This document shows positions 19,718-60,232 of a stretch of 64,000 bases of DNA, piece by piece. The first letter of the stretch is position 1, and each line of letters begins with the position of its first letter. This DNA comes from Flavobacterium urumqiense (lineage in GTDB: Bacteria > Bacteroidota > Bacteroidia > Flavobacteriales > Flavobacteriaceae). The DNA is taken from positions 68,162 through 132,161 of the forward strand of contig NZ_FNVP01000003.1 in assembly GCF_900108015.1 (NCBI RefSeq), written 5' to 3'. A program made the translations under genes and the position numbers. The notes under the pieces were generated by a model that saw only the letters and a list, made by a program, of their open reading frames with translations, was not told the DNA's origin and searched no databases.

Positions 19718-21262
19718 TTAATTCTTATAGAAAGAGCTAATTTGCTGTAAATGTTGTTCAGTTTGGTATTTGTTAAAGTTGTCCCATTTAGGAGGAAGAC
19801 TTGTTTTTTCTCCATACATAGAATCAATGCAAACGTTGTTGTCTTTGTACTTTTCATGTAAAACTTCCAAAATTTTAAAGAAAAATTCGTCTAACAATAC
19901 TATCGCTTGAAATTCGGTTTTTAACGTGTTATATTTACTGTCAGATGGATTAAGTAATTGTAACAAATCTAAAACTTCATCCTTTTCAACTTCGTTTAGT
20001 TCCGTTAAATAACCGTATTTTAAAGTTTTAAAAACTAAATTATTCCAAGCTACGCTATCATGTCCCCATTTGACATCTGGTAATTTTAGCGCATGTTCAC
20101 AAATTAGAATAATGGAAAAAAGAACATCATTTAAATACTTTGCCGGGAATTCATCAAAGCTTCTAAATTCAAAACCACTTTGATACATTTTTTCCTGATT
20201 GAAATCAAGACCCACTTCCGAAAGCAATTCATATTCCATCTCTGACTGAATTTGATCTCTCCACCAAATATTTTCTTCTTTTTCAAACTTTAACAGCTTT
20301 CTAAAATCATCGACATTGTATGTTAGAATCTTTCCTTTAGGCATCGATTTGTTATAAGTGCCTACGCCAATATAACGAGACATAGCATTTCTCATAGAAC
20401 CCAAAGTGAATTTTTTGTCTAAATCATACTTAGTACTTATCACTCCCATAATATCGGGGCTTCCTAAAGTTGCTATAAAAAAAGGTTCAAACCATTGCAG
20501 CAAATAGATGGCGTTGGCGTGTGTTTTATCAAAATCTTTATAATCTACGATCCTGCTATTTTCTGTCAGTGTAGGTAAAGTAATGTGAAAATGGTACGTC
20601 CCATTGTTAAACAAAACAAGGTTTTCCTGATTGGTCATAAACATATTAAGACCATTGTTGTAATCTGGAAAATTTAATTTTTCTTTAATAACCTTTGATT
20701 CGTTTATAGTATCTAGGAATAACTTTTTAGTCGCTTTTAACTCTTTACAAGAATCGACGATAGTTCGGTTTTCAAAGTATTTTGTTACAAATTCGATCGA
20801 ATCACCATCAAAATGTACGGAACCCATCGTTTTATTTCTTTGAGTAATCATACTTTGAATATTATAGGGTTGGTCCTCAAGAAAAAGTTCCATGATGGAC
20901 TTTCCTAAATATTCCGGATTTTCAATTGGCGGGAGAGTCTCAGCTGTAGTATCTGTGTTCTCAAATAATGGCTTTACAGCTGATAAAGTTTTGTGCTGAT
21001 AGTTTATATCTAATTTTTCTAAGGAATGACTGTTCATCATTCTGCTCACTTTATAATTTTCATTCAGGCAAAAAGCTTTTTTTAATACAGGAGCTATGCT
21101 TTCCGGTTTATAGCATTTTCTGTAATCAATACTATATTTCTCAAAACCAATTTTTTCTTGTATAAATTCACCAGATACTATTAAGGATTCTTCAAATTGC
21201 ATGTAGGTTTCGTTTTCTAATCCAATTCCCCAATAATATTTTTTTGTCTGATTTTCTTTCAT
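19718..21262 (-). CDS. Probable carboxylate-amine ligase of the glutamate-cysteine ligase superfamily
   Basis: I do not recognise this 514-residue protein by name. It shows, in order, an acidic strand GIGLENETY (Glu16, Glu18), HFHITLP (His224, His226), a helix QWFEPFFIATLGSPD (about 256-270), RNAMSRYIGVGTYN (Arg291, Arg296) and FEFRSFDEF (Glu365, Arg367). An N-terminal GIxLExE strand, a HxH strand, the (Q)WxEPxxxAxxGSP helix and a C-terminal ExR strand occur in that order in glutamate-cysteine ligases and related amidoligases, which join a carboxylate to an amine using ATP. Function is inferred from motifs only. A putative Cys/His amidase gene lies 556 bp upstream on the same strand. Confidence 0.5.
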   Translation of the reverse strand: MKENQTKKYYWGIGLENETYMQFEESLIVSGEFIQEKIGFEKYSIDYRKCYKPESIAPVLKKAFCLNENYKVSRMMNSHSLEKLDINYQHKTLSAVKPLFENTDTTAETLPPIENPEYLGKSIMELFLEDQPYNIQSMITQRNKTMGSVHFDGDSIEFVTKYFENRTIVDSCKELKATKKLFLDTINESKVIKEKLNFPDYNNGLNMFMTNQENLVLFNNGTYHFHITLPTLTENSRIVDYKDFDKTHANAIYLLQWFEPFFIATLGSPDIMGVISTKYDLDKKFTLGSMRNAMSRYIGVGTYNKSMPKGKILTYNVDDFRKLLKFEKEENIWWRDQIQSEMEYELLSEVGLDFNQEKMYQSGFEFRSFDEFPAKYLNDVLFSIILICEHALKLPDVKWGHDSVAWNNLVFKTLKYGYLTELNEVEKDEVLDLLQLLNPSDSKYNTLKTEFQAIVLLDEFFFKILEVLHEKYKDNNVCIDSMYGEKTSLPPKWDNFNKYQTEQHLQQISSFYKN

Positions 21263-21818
21263 TTATACTAATTCTTTTTTTTTAATGGTTAAGTAACTTT
21301 ATTTTTATTTTTTTATTTGTAAACAGGATTTAATCCGTTGTAAGCCGCTTAAAAACAATGTTTTAGTATTTTAAGCGTAATTGTTTGCAATCCTTAATTT
21401 TTTTTCTATCTTTTAAACGAAAGGAGTTAAATTTCGGTTTCAGAAATCGTGCATTAGTGTCAACTGAACTATTGATAAAAAGTCAAATTTTATAATGTAG
21501 TTATAAATCAGGGTTGATTTTAATTACTTTTATATCAATAATTTAAGTAGATGAATAACTTAATTCCGGTTTTTGCTATTCTCATATTTTTCAAGTTGCA
21601 AAAGTACTTAATTATTATGTCATTTCCAAGAGGTTAATGGCACTATAATTACCGAGAAAGAAGGAAGTCAATTTTAGGATTATTTGAAGTGGTACTGCAT
21701 TTATAAGACAGTTGTTATTTATATTAAAAACCTATTTTTGTCCTTTCAAATGCGTTAGTGTTAGTATAGCTCAAGAAAATGTGGTGTGTTCGATCAATCG
21801 GATTTACTGCGACCCCAT
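21263..21818. other. Gap between the putative amidase and ligase genes
   Basis: No gene is visible in about 555 bp. If the two flanking minus-strand genes work together they are not tightly coupled at transcript level. The gap probably holds a promoter of the ligase-like gene. Confidence 0.4.
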
Positions 21819-22556
21819 TTAGTCATGATAGTAAAACACGTAGGAGGAATATAGCTCATCATTCCACCAGTCTTTCTTAATTTCCGAAAAGTAGTTGTAA
21901 TTTGATTTTCCTGCTTGTGATTGTAAAGGATATACCACAACACCATTTTCTCTATAGGCACGATTCAAATCCGTTTCAGGAACAACAGGAACAATATGGC
22001 CGGAGAGTCCTTTTTCTTTCCTTTTGGCACAAATTATTCCAACTCCTCCATTGAAGTTTACTTTATTTTGAATTTCATCAACATCAAACATCCTTTTCCA
22101 ACCAAAACTAGCTCCCCATTTCAAAAACCAATCGTGTATGGCACTAGAATAAATATGATCTACGGTTTCCCCATAAATAGCTTCCACTTCTTGTCCGTCT
22201 AATACTTTTTGCAGCGCGTCATCTGTCCACCAAACAGTAGGAACATAAACTCTAGAGAAATAGCAATAATCGAAAGTGTACACATTACAATACGTATCTT
22301 CTATTGTTCTTTGGTATCGAATATTTGTAGCAACATCGAGCTTCTTTATAAGTCGAGCAATACTCTCTCGCTTGGTCATTGGGTTAGTCAAATCTCTATA
22401 TGGAATGCTGGAATCACTAATGGGTTTGCACCTCATTAGCATAGAATCTAACCGTGATGCGGGATCCGGTAAAAGATTGGCAATCTTCATTTTGGAATTC
22501 GGTATTGAATCGTCAACTATTGGCTCAAAGGGAGCCGAAACGGTATCTTTCTTCAT
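21819..22556 (-). CDS. Putative Cys/His amidase (NlpC/CHAP-like fold)
   Basis: The 245-residue protein has no signal peptide. The central part reads TYCNVYTFDYC with a candidate nucleophile Cys90, then VPTVWW, HDWFLKWGASFGW, an aspartate/glutamine segment VDEIQNKVNFNGGVGIICAKR, and GHIVPVVPE with His187 and Glu194. The order C-N-x-F/Y-x-x-D, WW, FGW, NxGG and GHI is typical of bacterial amidases or endopeptidases of the NlpC/P60-CHAP type, including T6SS-like amidases. The N-terminal 75 residues, with a Pro-rich start, are not recognised. Without a signal peptide the target could be a cytoplasmic peptide or an isopeptide bond. Confidence 0.5.
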   Translation of the reverse strand: MKKDTVSAPFEPIVDDSIPNSKMKIANLLPDPASRLDSMLMRCKPISDSSIPYRDLTNPMTKRESIARLIKKLDVATNIRYQRTIEDTYCNVYTFDYCYFSRVYVPTVWWTDDALQKVLDGQEVEAIYGETVDHIYSSAIHDWFLKWGASFGWKRMFDVDEIQNKVNFNGGVGIICAKRKEKGLSGHIVPVVPETDLNRAYRENGVVVYPLQSQAGKSNYNYFSEIKKDWWNDELYSSYVFYYHD

Positions 22557-23609: not shown

Positions 23610-24146
23610 CTAAATTTCATCAGAATAAAATACATTGCCATCAACTATTCTTGCTGGGGAAGTGTATTTATGTTCCTGAACTTTTCCTTTTGCCATAATA
23701 TGTAATACCGCCCAACCTTTTGCTTTTAAATAGTCGGACACCATCGAACGGTGACACCTCCACCAAACCGCCTCCGAGCACATATAAGCCGTGGGCTGTT
23801 CTAAAGCTATTTGTTCCAGTTTCACAATGGCATTTGCGAATTCTATGGTTTCCATATAATCAGCATAACCTCTGAAAGAATCATTGTTCCAGCGGTTGTT
23901 TTTTGAGTCTTTTTTCATTTTCCTTCTTCCTCCCAAATCGACCAAATGTATATATTGTATTCCAGTTTTAGCTAAGGATATTTTTATGTTTTCCAAGTCA
24001 AATTGTGGGAACCTGCGTGAGCCTGGGAACCTGCGTATGTCGACAAGAATTTTAATGTCAAAAGAACAAAGCATATTTAAAAATTCATCCAGACTATGAG
24101 TCGAATGTCCTATGGAATAAATGGTATATGTTGCTAATTTATTCAT
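23610..24146 (-). CDS. DUF488 family protein
   Basis: The 178-residue protein carries the DUF488 signature: YSIGHSTHSLDEFLNML at the N-terminus, LVDIRRFPGSRRFPQF, YIHLVDLGGRR, then FRGYADYM and a C-terminal CSEAVWWRCHRSMVSDYL with conserved Cys and His. The family is widespread and its biochemical role is not settled. Its start overlaps the end of the SMUG2-like glycosylase gene by 4 bp, so it is translated with it, which hints at a link with base repair. Confidence 0.88.
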   Translation of the reverse strand: MNKLATYTIYSIGHSTHSLDEFLNMLCSFDIKILVDIRRFPGSRRFPQFDLENIKISLAKTGIQYIHLVDLGGRRKMKKDSKNNRWNNDSFRGYADYMETIEFANAIVKLEQIALEQPTAYMCSEAVWWRCHRSMVSDYLKAKGWAVLHIMAKGKVQEHKYTSPARIVDGNVFYSDEI

Positions 24147-24838
24147 TTGGGATTGTTTAAGGCCAAAATATATTTGTCGATATACAGTTGTTTTTCTTTA
24201 GATTTATATTGCTGGATATATCTTGGATGTTCAAGGATTATTAAACCTTCAAACAACTTTGCTTCTTTGTTTAGCTTTTGGATAAATGCTGCATTTTTTT
24301 TCCCCAGCACAAAAACCTCGGAAGTATCTAATCCCAAACTGATGTGTTTTTTCAAAGACAAAATCATAAAATCTTTCACCATTTCAAAAAGAATAGAATC
24401 GTCATAATAATTGGCATTAATCCATTTGCCGGTTTTTGTTTGCCGGATAATTGCTAAAGGAAAGGGAGAGTTGATATAGAAATCTTGGTAGAAATTTTTT
24501 GCTCCGCCATATTCGGCAATCATCTCATACATAAAAACAGAAGAAACTTCGTGCGTATTAGCCGATTGCATTTTGAAACCGCAAGCACTTTCCAGTCGTT
24601 TTGTATCCGTAAATGGCACACCCGTTACCCCAGCGCCGTGACGGCTCGGGTTGATACCAACAATAAATCTTCTCTGTTTTGAATCGTTATAATATTTGTG
24701 ATAAAACTGTTGCATCACTTCCATTGTTTCAGGATTATCCAAGTAAGGATTCAGCACCTGAAAACCCTCTGGTAATTTGCCTAAATAGTGTAAATGGCGG
24801 TTGAAATCAATCACTTTATCTGCAAAGGTTTTTGGCAT
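24143..24838 (-). CDS. SMUG2-like uracil-DNA glycosylase family protein (DUF4918)
   Basis: The 231-residue protein has RFIVGINPSRHGAGVTGVPF near residue 55, which is the uracil-glycosylase motif 1 region (GINPxxxGAxxTGVPFTD), and EVFVLGKKNAAFI plus LEHPRYIQQY near the end, the motif 2 region with HPR. This is the SMUG2/DUF4918 branch found in Bacteroidota, expected to remove uracil or damaged bases from DNA. It is the first gene of a three-gene minus-strand unit with DUF488 and DUF2945. Confidence 0.82.
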   Translation of the reverse strand: MPKTFADKVIDFNRHLHYLGKLPEGFQVLNPYLDNPETMEVMQQFYHKYYNDSKQRRFIVGINPSRHGAGVTGVPFTDTKRLESACGFKMQSANTHEVSSVFMYEMIAEYGGAKNFYQDFYINSPFPLAIIRQTKTGKWINANYYDDSILFEMVKDFMILSLKKHISLGLDTSEVFVLGKKNAAFIQKLNKEAKLFEGLIILEHPRYIQQYKSKEKQLYIDKYILALNNPK

Positions 24839-29907: not shown

Positions 29908-30378
29908 TTATTTCTGTTTAAACCTATTGTCAAATTGTAATTTTTGTGTGGAAATTACTTTGATTTTTGCTGAGTCAGGATGATTTGGATTGATTAAATA
30001 ATTAAATTCAGGAGGAACTATACTACTAGGAACTTTTAATACAGCAGCATCTTTTTGTGAAACAAAATCATCGCCAATGTATTGTGTTTCAAGAATTGGG
30101 GGTTTGGAATTCCAATTCTCAGGTAATTCGTCTATAGATAATTCTAATATTTCGATATCGTCTGGTATATCAATTTCGACGTAGAATCTATCTTTTGGTA
30201 AATCTTCTGAAAAGTCTAAATGTACAGAAATTTCAAGAGTTGCAAGAGCACGAGATTCAGCTGTATAAACGAGAGATGTATTTAAACTATTCCATCTATA
30301 TCCTTCAGTTGAAGCAGCTCCAACCCCTTGTAATGCAGTATCTAAATATTTTTCTCTTTCAATTCTATATACTATCAT
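29908..30378 (-). CDS. RES-domain toxin
   Basis: The 156-residue RES domain starts MIVYRIEREKYLD with the conserved Arg, then GYRWNS, TAESRALATLEISVHL with the conserved Glu, and VPSSIVPPEFNYLINPNHP with the conserved Ser. RES toxins degrade NAD+ or ADP-ribosylate targets and are held by an Xre-type antitoxin. Here the antitoxin gene is directly upstream with a TAATG stop-start overlap. The reading frame is intact, so the pair is probably functional. Confidence 0.92.
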   Translation of the reverse strand: MIVYRIEREKYLDTALQGVGAASTEGYRWNSLNTSLVYTAESRALATLEISVHLDFSEDLPKDRFYVEIDIPDDIEILELSIDELPENWNSKPPILETQYIGDDFVSQKDAAVLKVPSSIVPPEFNYLINPNHPDSAKIKVISTQKLQFDNRFKQK

Positions 30379-30878
30379 TAAGCTAGATTTCCATATTCAA
30401 TTCTATTTAAACAATTTTTTACTTCTTGTATTCCTGTAATAGAATCCAATAGACTTTCTGGTGAATTACCCCCTAAAGAAATGTTTTGTTTTTTCATCCA
30501 GCGTTGAAATTTTTCTTCTTCATTATTAAAAACTTCTATTCCAAAATCAACTAGTTCAGTAAGAAGTAATATAATTTCACTGTCCCTACCATTTAACAAT
30601 GATTTTTCTCTTCTTTTTTTATTATATGTTGTCTGTGGTAACCCGAAAATGTGTAAAACATCTTTTACGGGAACATTAATTCTTTTACTTATAACGTCAA
30701 TCGTGGCATAAGGAATACCTGCTCTTATAATACCTACTCTTTCAAGTTTTGATGCCCAACTGTATTCATGCCCTTCTGATTCTAATCTCCATTTTGATGA
30801 CGATATTCTAGCAGTTTTAGCTCGTTCAATACTTTCTTTTGGATCAAATGTTTTCCGTGTTCTAATTCCTTTTTTCAT
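30378..30878 (-). CDS. Xre/MbcA/ParS-type antitoxin of the RES toxin
   Basis: From MKKGIRTRKTFDPKES the protein is about 166 residues. It has an N-terminal DNA-binding part (ATIDVISKRINVPVKDVLHIFGLPQTTYNKKRR) and a C-terminal DUF2384-like toxin-binding domain (LLLTELVDFGIEVF, then FQRWMKKQNISLGGNSPESLL). The LGGxxPxxLL pattern is the mark of this antitoxin family. A 20-bp-arm palindrome begins 2 bp upstream of the start and is very likely its own operator. Confidence 0.92.
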   Translation of the reverse strand: MKKGIRTRKTFDPKESIERAKTARISSSKWRLESEGHEYSWASKLERVGIIRAGIPYATIDVISKRINVPVKDVLHIFGLPQTTYNKKRREKSLLNGRDSEIILLLTELVDFGIEVFNNEEEKFQRWMKKQNISLGGNSPESLLDSITGIQEVKNCLNRIEYGNLA

Positions 30879-30879
30879 A

Positions 30880-30923
30880 TTTACAGCATAATTGTTGTAA
30901 ATATACAACAATTATGCTGTAAA
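30880..30923. promoter_or_regulatory. Perfect 20-bp-arm palindrome, operator of the Xre-RES operon
   Basis: TTTACAGCATAATTGTTGTA at 30880-30899 and its exact complement at 30904-30923 are separated by 4 bp, directly upstream of the antitoxin start. This is a typical position for an autoregulatory site. The arms contain ACAATTAT/ATAATTGT subrepeats. No T-run follows. Confidence 0.75.
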
Positions 30924-31073: not shown

Positions 31074-32928
31074 GTGTGCCTTGCATGCACTTCCAATTTC
31101 TCAAAAGTAGGAATTTTATCTAGAGGGTGCAAGTCCCTTATCGGCAAGTTGTTGATTTATATTGAGCCGATTAGCACGTGGCAAGCTGGTTTGGGGCGAC
31201 CCATGCAGTGAAGGAAGCCAAACGGCAAAAGTCTGTACCGAGGAACACAAAGCGCATAAAAGGCTAACTAAATTGGGTAAGCATGCACAGCAATGCGAAG
31301 CCTTGAGACAACAGGTTTAGTTAGTAGATGCGTCGGGGATAGACGGAAAGAGGAAGTGCTTACCGAGGGAGGTCTTCATAACCACGAGTGGTTGGGTGAA
31401 GAAGTCAGCAGAAGTCATAGTACTTGGGGCAACGAGTTACCAATAGAAAGGTATAGGACTCACAAACAAGGAAGGACTGAACGCAAGTGGTTCTTAATTT
31501 CTAACGGAATGGCGTAAGTCATAGCCCTAGAAAAGCGGAACAGGAAGAATTTAATGTAAAACACCAAGCATGATTGCACAAGTAACACATCCTTACAATC
31601 TCCAAAAGGCGCTACGCCAAGTAGTGGTCAATAAAGGCAGTGCGGGTGTTGATGGCTTAAAAACCACTCAACTGGCGGATTATTTCCGTGAACACAAGCC
31701 TGTATTACTGGAAGATATAAAGAATGATCGTTACTTGCCGCAACCCATTCTTGGAGTGGAGATTCCAAAAGGAAATGGTAAAACAAGACTTTTAGGAATC
31801 CCAACAGTGGTTGACCGGCTACTTCAACAAGCCGTATCGCAAGCGATGATGCCAAGATTCGAAAAGGATTTTAGTGTGAACAGCTTCAAATTTCGACCCA
31901 ACAAAAATGCCCGCCAAGCGGTAGGCAAAGCCCTGGGAAACATCCACGAAGGCTACAGTTATATTGTAGATATTGACCTAAAGACCTTCTTTGACCAAGT
32001 GGATCATTGCTTGCTGATGAACCTAATTTACCAAAAGGTAAAATGCCCAACGACTTTGCGATTAATCCGCAAATGGTTGCGAGTGCCAATACTCATCAAA
32101 GGAAAACTGGTCAAACGACGAAAAGGTGTTCCTCAGGGAAGCCCGATAAGTCCGCTTTTGTCAAATATTTTACTCCACGAATTGGATAAAGAACTGACAC
32201 GAAAAGGCTTGAAGTTTGTCCGTTATGCCGATGACTTTAGTATCTACACCAAATCGAAAACCCAAGCCAAAACGGTTGGTAACGCGATCTTTCTGTTTTT
32301 GAGAGATAAGTTGAAACTGACCATAAATCTGGAAAAAAGCGGGATTAGAAAACCGATTCAGTTCACAATATTGGGATTTTCGTTTGCATCGACTTATCAA
32401 AAACGAGTAAAAGGCAGGTATCAGTTAACCGTAGGGGACAAAGCTTGGGCAAAACTCAAGCAGAGTTTAAAAGAAGTGACACGCAAAACCGCACCGAGAA
32501 GTTTCGAGGAACGCATCCGTAAAATCAATGAAATCCAGCGAGGATGGTTAAACTATTTTCGGGGGACGAGTATTCAAGGGAAGTTACGAGATATTGATGG
32601 ATGGTTGCGAAACCGACTGCGTTATTGCATTTGGACGGACTGGAAAAAGCCCGAACGCAAAAGGAAAAACCTGATGCGACTAGGAATTGACAAAGACCAT
32701 GCTTACGCTTGGAGCAGAACCAGAAAAGGAGGCTGGCGAATCGCTCAGAGTCCAATTCTTACCACTACAATTACCCTACTGCGGCTCAATAAGAAAGGCT
32801 ATCAATCAATGTTGGAAATTTACATGAAACTCAACCCATCACTTTGCGAACCGCCGTATACGAGACCCTTACGTACGGTGGTGTGAGAGGCGCACTCCGT
32901 CAGTTTCTGGCGGAGCCGTCTACTCGAT
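31074..32928 (+). mobile_element. Group II intron with intron-encoded protein
   Basis: The 5' end lies in a GTGTGTGTGCC stretch (start uncertain by a few bases, 31068-31074), matching the GUGYG rule. The ribozyme 5' domains fill about 500 bp, with AGGGTGCAAGTCCC and GGCAAGTTG-type motifs. The maturase gene sits in domain IV, and domains V and VI follow it, ending CTACTCGAT at 32928. The element is inserted exactly at a cassette-repeat boundary. A shortened copy lies at 29.5-29.9 kb. It appears complete. Confidence 0.88.
31570..32886 (+). CDS. ltrA: Group II intron reverse transcriptase/maturase
   Basis: The 438-residue protein has the reverse-transcriptase blocks KNDRYLPQPILGVEIPKGNG, RLLGIPTVVDRLLQQA, VDIDLKTFFDQVDH (133-146), GVPQGSPISPLLSN (186-199) and the catalytic FVRYADDF (YADD 219-222), then a maturase (X) domain and the GIIM-like end RRGWLNYFRG-type region (QRGWLNYFRGT). 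No HNH endonuclease follows, so mobility would depend on other ways of priming. It promotes splicing and retrohoming of its host intron. Confidence 0.95.
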   Translation: MIAQVTHPYNLQKALRQVVVNKGSAGVDGLKTTQLADYFREHKPVLLEDIKNDRYLPQPILGVEIPKGNGKTRLLGIPTVVDRLLQQAVSQAMMPRFEKDFSVNSFKFRPNKNARQAVGKALGNIHEGYSYIVDIDLKTFFDQVDHCLLMNLIYQKVKCPTTLRLIRKWLRVPILIKGKLVKRRKGVPQGSPISPLLSNILLHELDKELTRKGLKFVRYADDFSIYTKSKTQAKTVGNAIFLFLRDKLKLTINLEKSGIRKPIQFTILGFSFASTYQKRVKGRYQLTVGDKAWAKLKQSLKEVTRKTAPRSFEERIRKINEIQRGWLNYFRGTSIQGKLRDIDGWLRNRLRYCIWTDWKKPERKRKNLMRLGIDKDHAYAWSRTRKGGWRIAQSPILTTTITLLRLNKKGYQSMLEIYMKLNPSLCEPPYTRPLRTVV

Positions 32929-34763: not shown

Positions 34764-35096
34764 ATTGTGTTGATTTTGTGAGTGAAAGATACTGATTTTT
34801 TTTACAAATGCTGTTTTATTCCAGTAAATGGTTCTTACGGCACGGATGCTTTTTTTTGCGTAAGGGATAGCAGTGAAAATCCTTTTGTGAAGCGAAGCAG
34901 AATAAAAGATTGCAACGGATAGCCCGACCTTGTTGCTGTAAAAAATAGGATTTGTAGACATACTTTCTGCAACAAGGTCACGCCCAAATTATCAAGATTC
35001 GGAAGCTGATTGATGTTGGTTTCGAAATAATTTTAAACAAAAAAGGTAGTGTATTTTGCGAAAAACTTTGCGAACTTTGCGACAAAAGTAAAGAAT

Positions 35097-59984: not shown

Positions 59985-60232
59985 ACATACATTAGTAACC
60001 TAAAGGTAGGTTTTGTTACAATATTAATAATTTTTAGGAGCAGAAACACTTCAATCCATAATTATTAATCGTCCCGCTGTACATTTCAATCTTTATTTTC
60101 TGAAAAAATCAGAAAAATAAAGGATTTCCATTTCCATCAGGGCTAATTTACACGAATATTTTTCTTAAAACCCTTTCAAAAAAAACAAAAATTTCGATAC
60201 TTTTTGATGAAATTCAACATTAAAAAACATTG

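Follow-up and report, generated by a model that had tools for sequence, protein, structure and literature searches.

A co-inherited ligase-like and amidase-like gene pair in Flavobacterium and a proposed make-and-break amide module

Flavobacterium urumqiense carries, side by side, genes for a 514-residue protein resembling carboxylate-amine ligases and a 245-residue protein resembling papain-fold amidases, and the two genes are almost certainly functionally coupled. This is the best-supported claim of our analysis, because the genes co-occur, adjoin each other in many genomic contexts, have evolved in parallel, and are both retained where they are convergent or unlinked. In the window (the whole 64,000-nucleotide stretch of DNA that was analyzed, from a 3.4-Mb genome), both open reading frames are intact and are co-directional neighbors separated by a gap of 556 bp. 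The features are as follows.

19718..21262, minus strand: carboxylate-amine (GCS/GS-type) ligase-like protein, 514 aa, assigned by its motif signature and without a database family
21263..21818, minus strand: intergenic region with the predicted ligase promoter and a long 5' leader, a block conserved in relatives
21599..21629, minus strand: promoter-like site of the Bacteroidota type, TTG-N20-TACTTTTG, preceding the ligase gene with a leader of ~335 nt
21819..22556, minus strand: putative papain-like (NlpC/P60-type) amidase, 245 aa, Cys90/His187, of an unnamed phage-endolysin-like family

No Pfam or NCBIfam model matched the ligase-like protein, and its PHROGs match was at chance level (E 0.06); the amidase-like protein had no Pfam or NCBIfam match at E ≤ 1 and a chance-level PHROGs match. 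PADLOC matched neither protein, and a known defense system was rejected on that ground. Upstream of the amidase gene, a DUF488 gene overlaps a uracil-DNA glycosylase superfamily gene (23610-24838, minus strand), and these two genes are not kept with the pair at other loci. The window also holds a RES-domain toxin gene with an Xre/MbcA-type antitoxin gene (29908-30911, minus strand), group II intron RNA domains (31190-31477, plus strand) followed by a reverse-transcriptase-like ORF that was assigned by eye, and two Flavo-1 RNAs (34853-34933, plus strand; 60066-60148, minus strand).

Co-inheritance and genomic contexts of the pair

The unit is present in approximately one-quarter to one-third of the sampled Flavobacterium species. 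When the ligase and the amidase were searched independently, both were found in the same 9 of 60 relatives' genomes (hypergeometric p ~7e-11; ~8e-9 within the genus). Among 296 genomes sampled across the phylum, six possessed the ligase and the same six possessed the Flavobacterium-type amidase; three additional amidase matches were distant relatives (~32-35% identical) lying within larger proteins. The order sample of 396 genomes contained 12 true ligases, all with an adjoining amidase gene, and a 564-aa transporter match at locus L195 in that ligase search was judged spurious. Over all samples, which overlap, 20 of 20 ligase-positive genomes had the amidase, and no Flavobacterium-type amidase without the ligase was found in the 60- or 296-genome scans. 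Tight co-occurrence is thus supported. The sequence-only reading had named differing predicted folds or a lack of co-occurrence in other genomes as results that would speak against it, and neither was encountered.

The best 80 ligase loci were then collected from 84,980 scanned species genomes. The amidase gene lies directly upstream of the ligase gene on the same strand in 79 of them, and at the remaining locus the contig ends 247 bp before the ligase start. The surroundings vary widely, with 60 distinct neighbor combinations among the 73 loci that have both flanks; no third gene family is conserved near the pair across the 80 loci, and a larger operon was rejected for this reason. The evolution of ligase and amidase is correlated (r = 0.86; highest null value 0.36). 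A divergent clade, in which the ligase is 34-36% identical to the window protein and the amidase has an SH3b domain, keeps both genes in convergent orientation, and one genome (G036; loci L122 and L123) retains both at a distance of ~335 kb. In this genome the amidase gene occupies the site that houses both genes in the divergent clade, next to the same GNAT neighbor.

Carriage as plasmid or phage cargo was rejected, since the ligase is absent from the plasmid, phage, and IMG/VR collections. The pair is also present in a sequence titled Glaciecola amylolytica (L086, CP034120.1), which is probably mislabeled; transfer out of Bacteroidota was rejected because its flanks, judged by reading the sequences, look like those of Bacteroidota.

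The region between the genes has conserved features of its own. Of 79 loci, 61 have the promoter-like site there, where shuffling predicts 1.5, and 77 of 78 lack it upstream of the amidase gene; it is also missing from loci with intergenic gaps of 38-59 bp. The ligase leader is nearly constant in length (~335 nt) in most loci with the site, and it is AT-rich and partly conserved; in the window it spans 21263-21604. The intergenic region contains only very short, differing frames, and a structured RNA was rejected there because no Rfam match was found. The ligase gene is therefore predicted to have its own promoter, and the pair would not simply be one transcript.

Motifs, folds, and relatives of the two proteins

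According to Iyer et al. 2008 (PMC2588565), the signature of the carboxylate-amine ligase superfamily combines GhExE in strand 1, acidic residues in strands 2-3, [HD]x[NH] in strand 4, and a pair of arginines that precede Ex[RK]x2D in strand 6. The ligase-like protein contains, in order, GLENE (14-18), FDGDxxE (151-157), HxH (224-226), WxEP...GSP (257-269), and ExRxxD (365-370). GhExE corresponds to G14-L15-E16-N17-E18, the acidic residues to D152, D154, and E157, [HD]x[NH] to H224-F-H226 (N at 226 in the divergent clade), Ex[RK]x2D to E365-F-R367-S-F-D370, and the two preceding arginines to R291 and R296. Eleven of these residues (E16, E18, D152, D154, E157, H224, R291, R296, E365, R367, and D370) are identical in 84 of 84 aligned ligases. 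The superfamily motif pattern matched 80 of 80 family members as well as the GshA (12/12) and GCS2 (13/13) controls and 0 of 329 other ORFs with a length of 250 aa or more, a result that is strong but not blind, as the spacing limits were chosen with knowledge of both families. None of 20,000 column shuffles satisfied a relaxed pattern of conserved columns. The ordered acidic, HxH, WxEP-GSP, and ExR motifs noticed in the sequence-only reading are thus present, beyond what chance would give.

A forced alignment places the ligase and Escherichia coli GshA in register at E157/E67, H224/H150, R291/R235, E365/E328, R367/R330, and WN406/WN377, and the GshA E67 block is matched best by the segment around E157. 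In hhalign, the ligase profile scored best against GshA (E 0.07), followed by Amidoligase_2 (0.2-0.29) and GCS2 (0.35-0.52), none of which is significant; among the controls, GshA versus GCS2 was detected (E 4e-6), and GCS2 versus Amidoligase_2 was also weak. Our own profile alignment with shuffles again ranked GshA at the top without significance (Z 2.4), and a comparison of invariant pairs was uninformative. For the window ligase, Pfam yielded nothing at E ≤ 10, and the matches of 17 members included no GCS family. In searches of this genome with the family models, PF04262 had no match and PF04107 matched only another locus; as modeled by these profiles, the ligase is outside both families.

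The superfamily has a GS-type six-stranded saddle fold. The AlphaFold model of the ligase is poor (pLDDT 47), and its structural matches are weak evidence for that reason. Structural comparison (VIA) of this model ranked YbdK (1r8g), a carboxylate-amine ligase, first (Z 6.1, 193 residues, rmsd 5.1), and the next match was an unrelated protein at Z 4.1; Foldseek returned only chance matches, with GshA and GCS2 chains not listed. Of the ligase class assigned in the sequence-only reading, the motif signature stands and the YbdK match lends it some weight, but profile-profile similarity does not reach significance. Membership in the GCS/glutamine-synthetase carboxylate-amine ligase superfamily is accordingly very probable, that is, strongly indicated but not proven, given the non-significant profile-profile scores and the poor structure model.

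The amidase model is of better quality (pLDDT 71.5), and its structural matches are Tse1/Tae1 (Z 8.8, 134 residues), the CHAP lysin Ly7917 (6.1), Tae3 (5.7), and the E. coli Gsp amidase (4.6). In this predicted model, C90 starts a helix (89-100) and H187 starts a strand (187-191), an arrangement shared with Tse1, and both residues are identical in 81 of 81 aligned amidases. In Tse1, Cys30 and His91 cleave the γ-D-Glu-mDAP amide (PMC3391265). The 245-aa protein is thus modeled as a papain/NlpC-fold cysteine amidase with Cys90 as the putative nucleophile and His187 as the putative base, in line with the Cys-His amidase pattern first noticed in the sequence. The claimed lack of a signal peptide also held: of the three amidases that were scored, none showed a hydrophobic one.

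Relatives of the amidase include 17 viral loci (29-41% identity) that share the catalytic motifs, one of which (L127) adjoins a phage tail sheath gene, as well as SH3b proteins and one GH19-SH3b fusion. Most copies of the amidase are without SH3b. The amidase belongs to an unnamed family resembling phage endolysins and SH3b lysins. Members of this endolysin-like family, including the GH19/SH3b fusions, were located at L116:7653-9212, L117:3141-5006, L099:4819-6606, L100, and L124-L140, and no catalytic model for the family was found in Pfam, NCBIfam, or PHROG.

Proposed function and alternatives

We tentatively favor the reading that the pair is a cytosolic, stand-alone two-enzyme module that makes and breaks an amide, and it may well be right. 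The ligase would use ATP to form an amide bond. The papain-fold amidase (Cys90/His187), a relative of the lysin family mostly retained without the wall-binding SH3b domain, would act in the cytosol and hydrolyze an amide that is chemically of the same type. As substrate we consider a small peptide likely, or a molecule resembling a muropeptide, that carries a γ-glutamyl-type bond, because Tse1, the nearest fold, cuts γ-D-Glu-mDAP and GCS enzymes make γ-glutamyl amides. Our data show the pairing, the conserved catalytic residues, and, in a predicted model, the amidase fold, whereas we infer the shared substrate, the γ-glutamyl bond, and the cytosolic action. The absence of an export signal and, usually, of SH3b speaks for this reading over its main rival; the non-significant ligase profile scores, the poor ligase model, and the ligase's own promoter count against it. 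The wall-lysin-like relatives of the amidase would point to a peptidoglycan-type or γ-glutamyl amide bond over a protein tag; they also suggest a polymer substrate, which speaks against make-and-break on a small molecule. In a more specific and more doubtful form, a new GS-fold ligase family and a domesticated phage-type wall amidase, with neither a signal peptide nor a dedicated transporter, would write and erase a so far undescribed γ-glutamyl-type modification in Flavobacteriales, its carrier being a muropeptide, a wall precursor, or a peptide metabolite.

The main rival, which we consider unlikely, is that the amidase serves as a weapon or autolysin directed at peptidoglycan and that the ligase alters the producer's own muropeptide so that its wall resists. 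The ligase might then, by analogy with the FemABX-type ligases of lysostaphin/Lif-Epr and zoocin A/Zif, add or amidate a residue, an equally unlikely step for which lysostaphin and zoocin immunity through cross-bridge modification is the precedent (PMC6461655). The phage-encoded or SH3b/GH19-fused relatives of the amidase are lysin-like, as this explanation expects, and the divergent clade retains the SH3b wall-binding domain, although that domain is missing from most copies and none of the three scored amidases showed a signal peptide. Immunity would also be consistent with a Flavobacterium-type amidase that never occurs without the ligase and with a conserved promoter dedicated to the ligase, such as an immunity gene could have; the ligase, however, never occurs alone as a resistance gene. 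No known export route was found: TssO, the T6SS-iii marker, passed its threshold in just one of the nine genomes with the pair and is absent from the present one, and a T6SS effector-immunity pair was rejected on the same count.

Strict tagging and untagging of proteins or peptides in the manner of PafA/Dop, in which the ligase would conjugate proteins with a moiety for the amidase to remove, appears very unlikely. PafA is in the same ligase superfamily and the make/break pairing would fit, but clustering of ORFs of at least 80 aa turned up neither a small Pup-like frame nor any other gene that recurs beside the pair at the 80 loci, and the homologs of the amidase are lysin-like. A Pup-like small ORF between the genes was rejected because the intergenic frames are very short and differ from locus to locus. 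Nothing in these results points specifically to protein tagging. An anti-phage or abortive module, in which the ligase restrains the endolysin-like amidase until infection releases it for cell lysis, might account for the phage-encoded amidase relatives and for the patchy distribution in many contexts; with no PADLOC match, no conserved defense genes nearby, and no conserved holin-like partner, we hold it to be highly improbable.

Comparison with known systems

As a kind, an amide ligase together with a papain-fold amidase is already known; both families and their combination are unnamed in the protein-family and defense databases searched. Amide make/break pairs have previously been proposed from comparative genomics, with amidoligases reportedly the subject of Iyer et al. 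2009, and to our knowledge clear, strictly co-inherited pairs are few. The pair had appeared undescribed at first reading, and a full-text literature search, which did not take in the 2009 amidoligase paper, found no description of it. Two families without database names are here coupled in dozens of sequenced, cultured species and in three arrangements, so that deletion combined with metabolite comparison could reveal the molecule directly. If the proposal is true, the GCS/PafA ligases gain one family and the pair illustrates a phage-type lysin domain turned into a housekeeping or immunity enzyme.

In Gss and in Rv2566-type fusions, a papain-fold enzyme is likewise fused to, or encoded next to, an amide ligase. 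Glutathionylspermidine synthetase/amidase (Gss), which combines a CHAP amidase and an ATP-grasp synthetase in one protein, is a precedent in kind: as here, an amidase of papain fold stays together with a ligase that forms amides at the expense of ATP, and one activity makes the bond that the other breaks, a likeness that we propose for the present pair. By contrast, the two activities are encoded here by separate genes, the ligase is of GS/GCS type, and the amidase resembles Tse1 (Z 8.8) more than it does the Gsp amidase (Z 4.6). Tse1/Tae1, a T6SS effector of the NlpC/P60 type, is likewise a single Cys-His catalytic domain without a signal peptide; the present amidase has no T6SS link or immunity-protein partner, and its partner is ligase-like. 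In the lysostaphin/Lif-Epr and zoocin A/Zif systems, an SH3b-type wall hydrolase also stands beside a peptide ligase, but the hydrolase is M23, the ligase is FemABX, and the systems are exported. The γ-glutamylcysteine ligases GshA and GCS2 (YbdK) have the ordered GhExE, HxN/H, Arg, and ExRxxD in common with our ligase, whereas length and inserts differ and sequence and profile similarity are not significant. GCS/PafA-type ligases with papain-fold or GATase-type thiol-peptidase partners, for which peptide metabolite synthesis has been proposed (Iyer et al. 2008, PMC2588565), share both the superfamily motifs and the association with a thiol peptidase; the pair described here differs from them in a ligase that no Pfam or NCBIfam model matches and in a partner that is an endolysin-like amidase instead of a transglutaminase or GATase.
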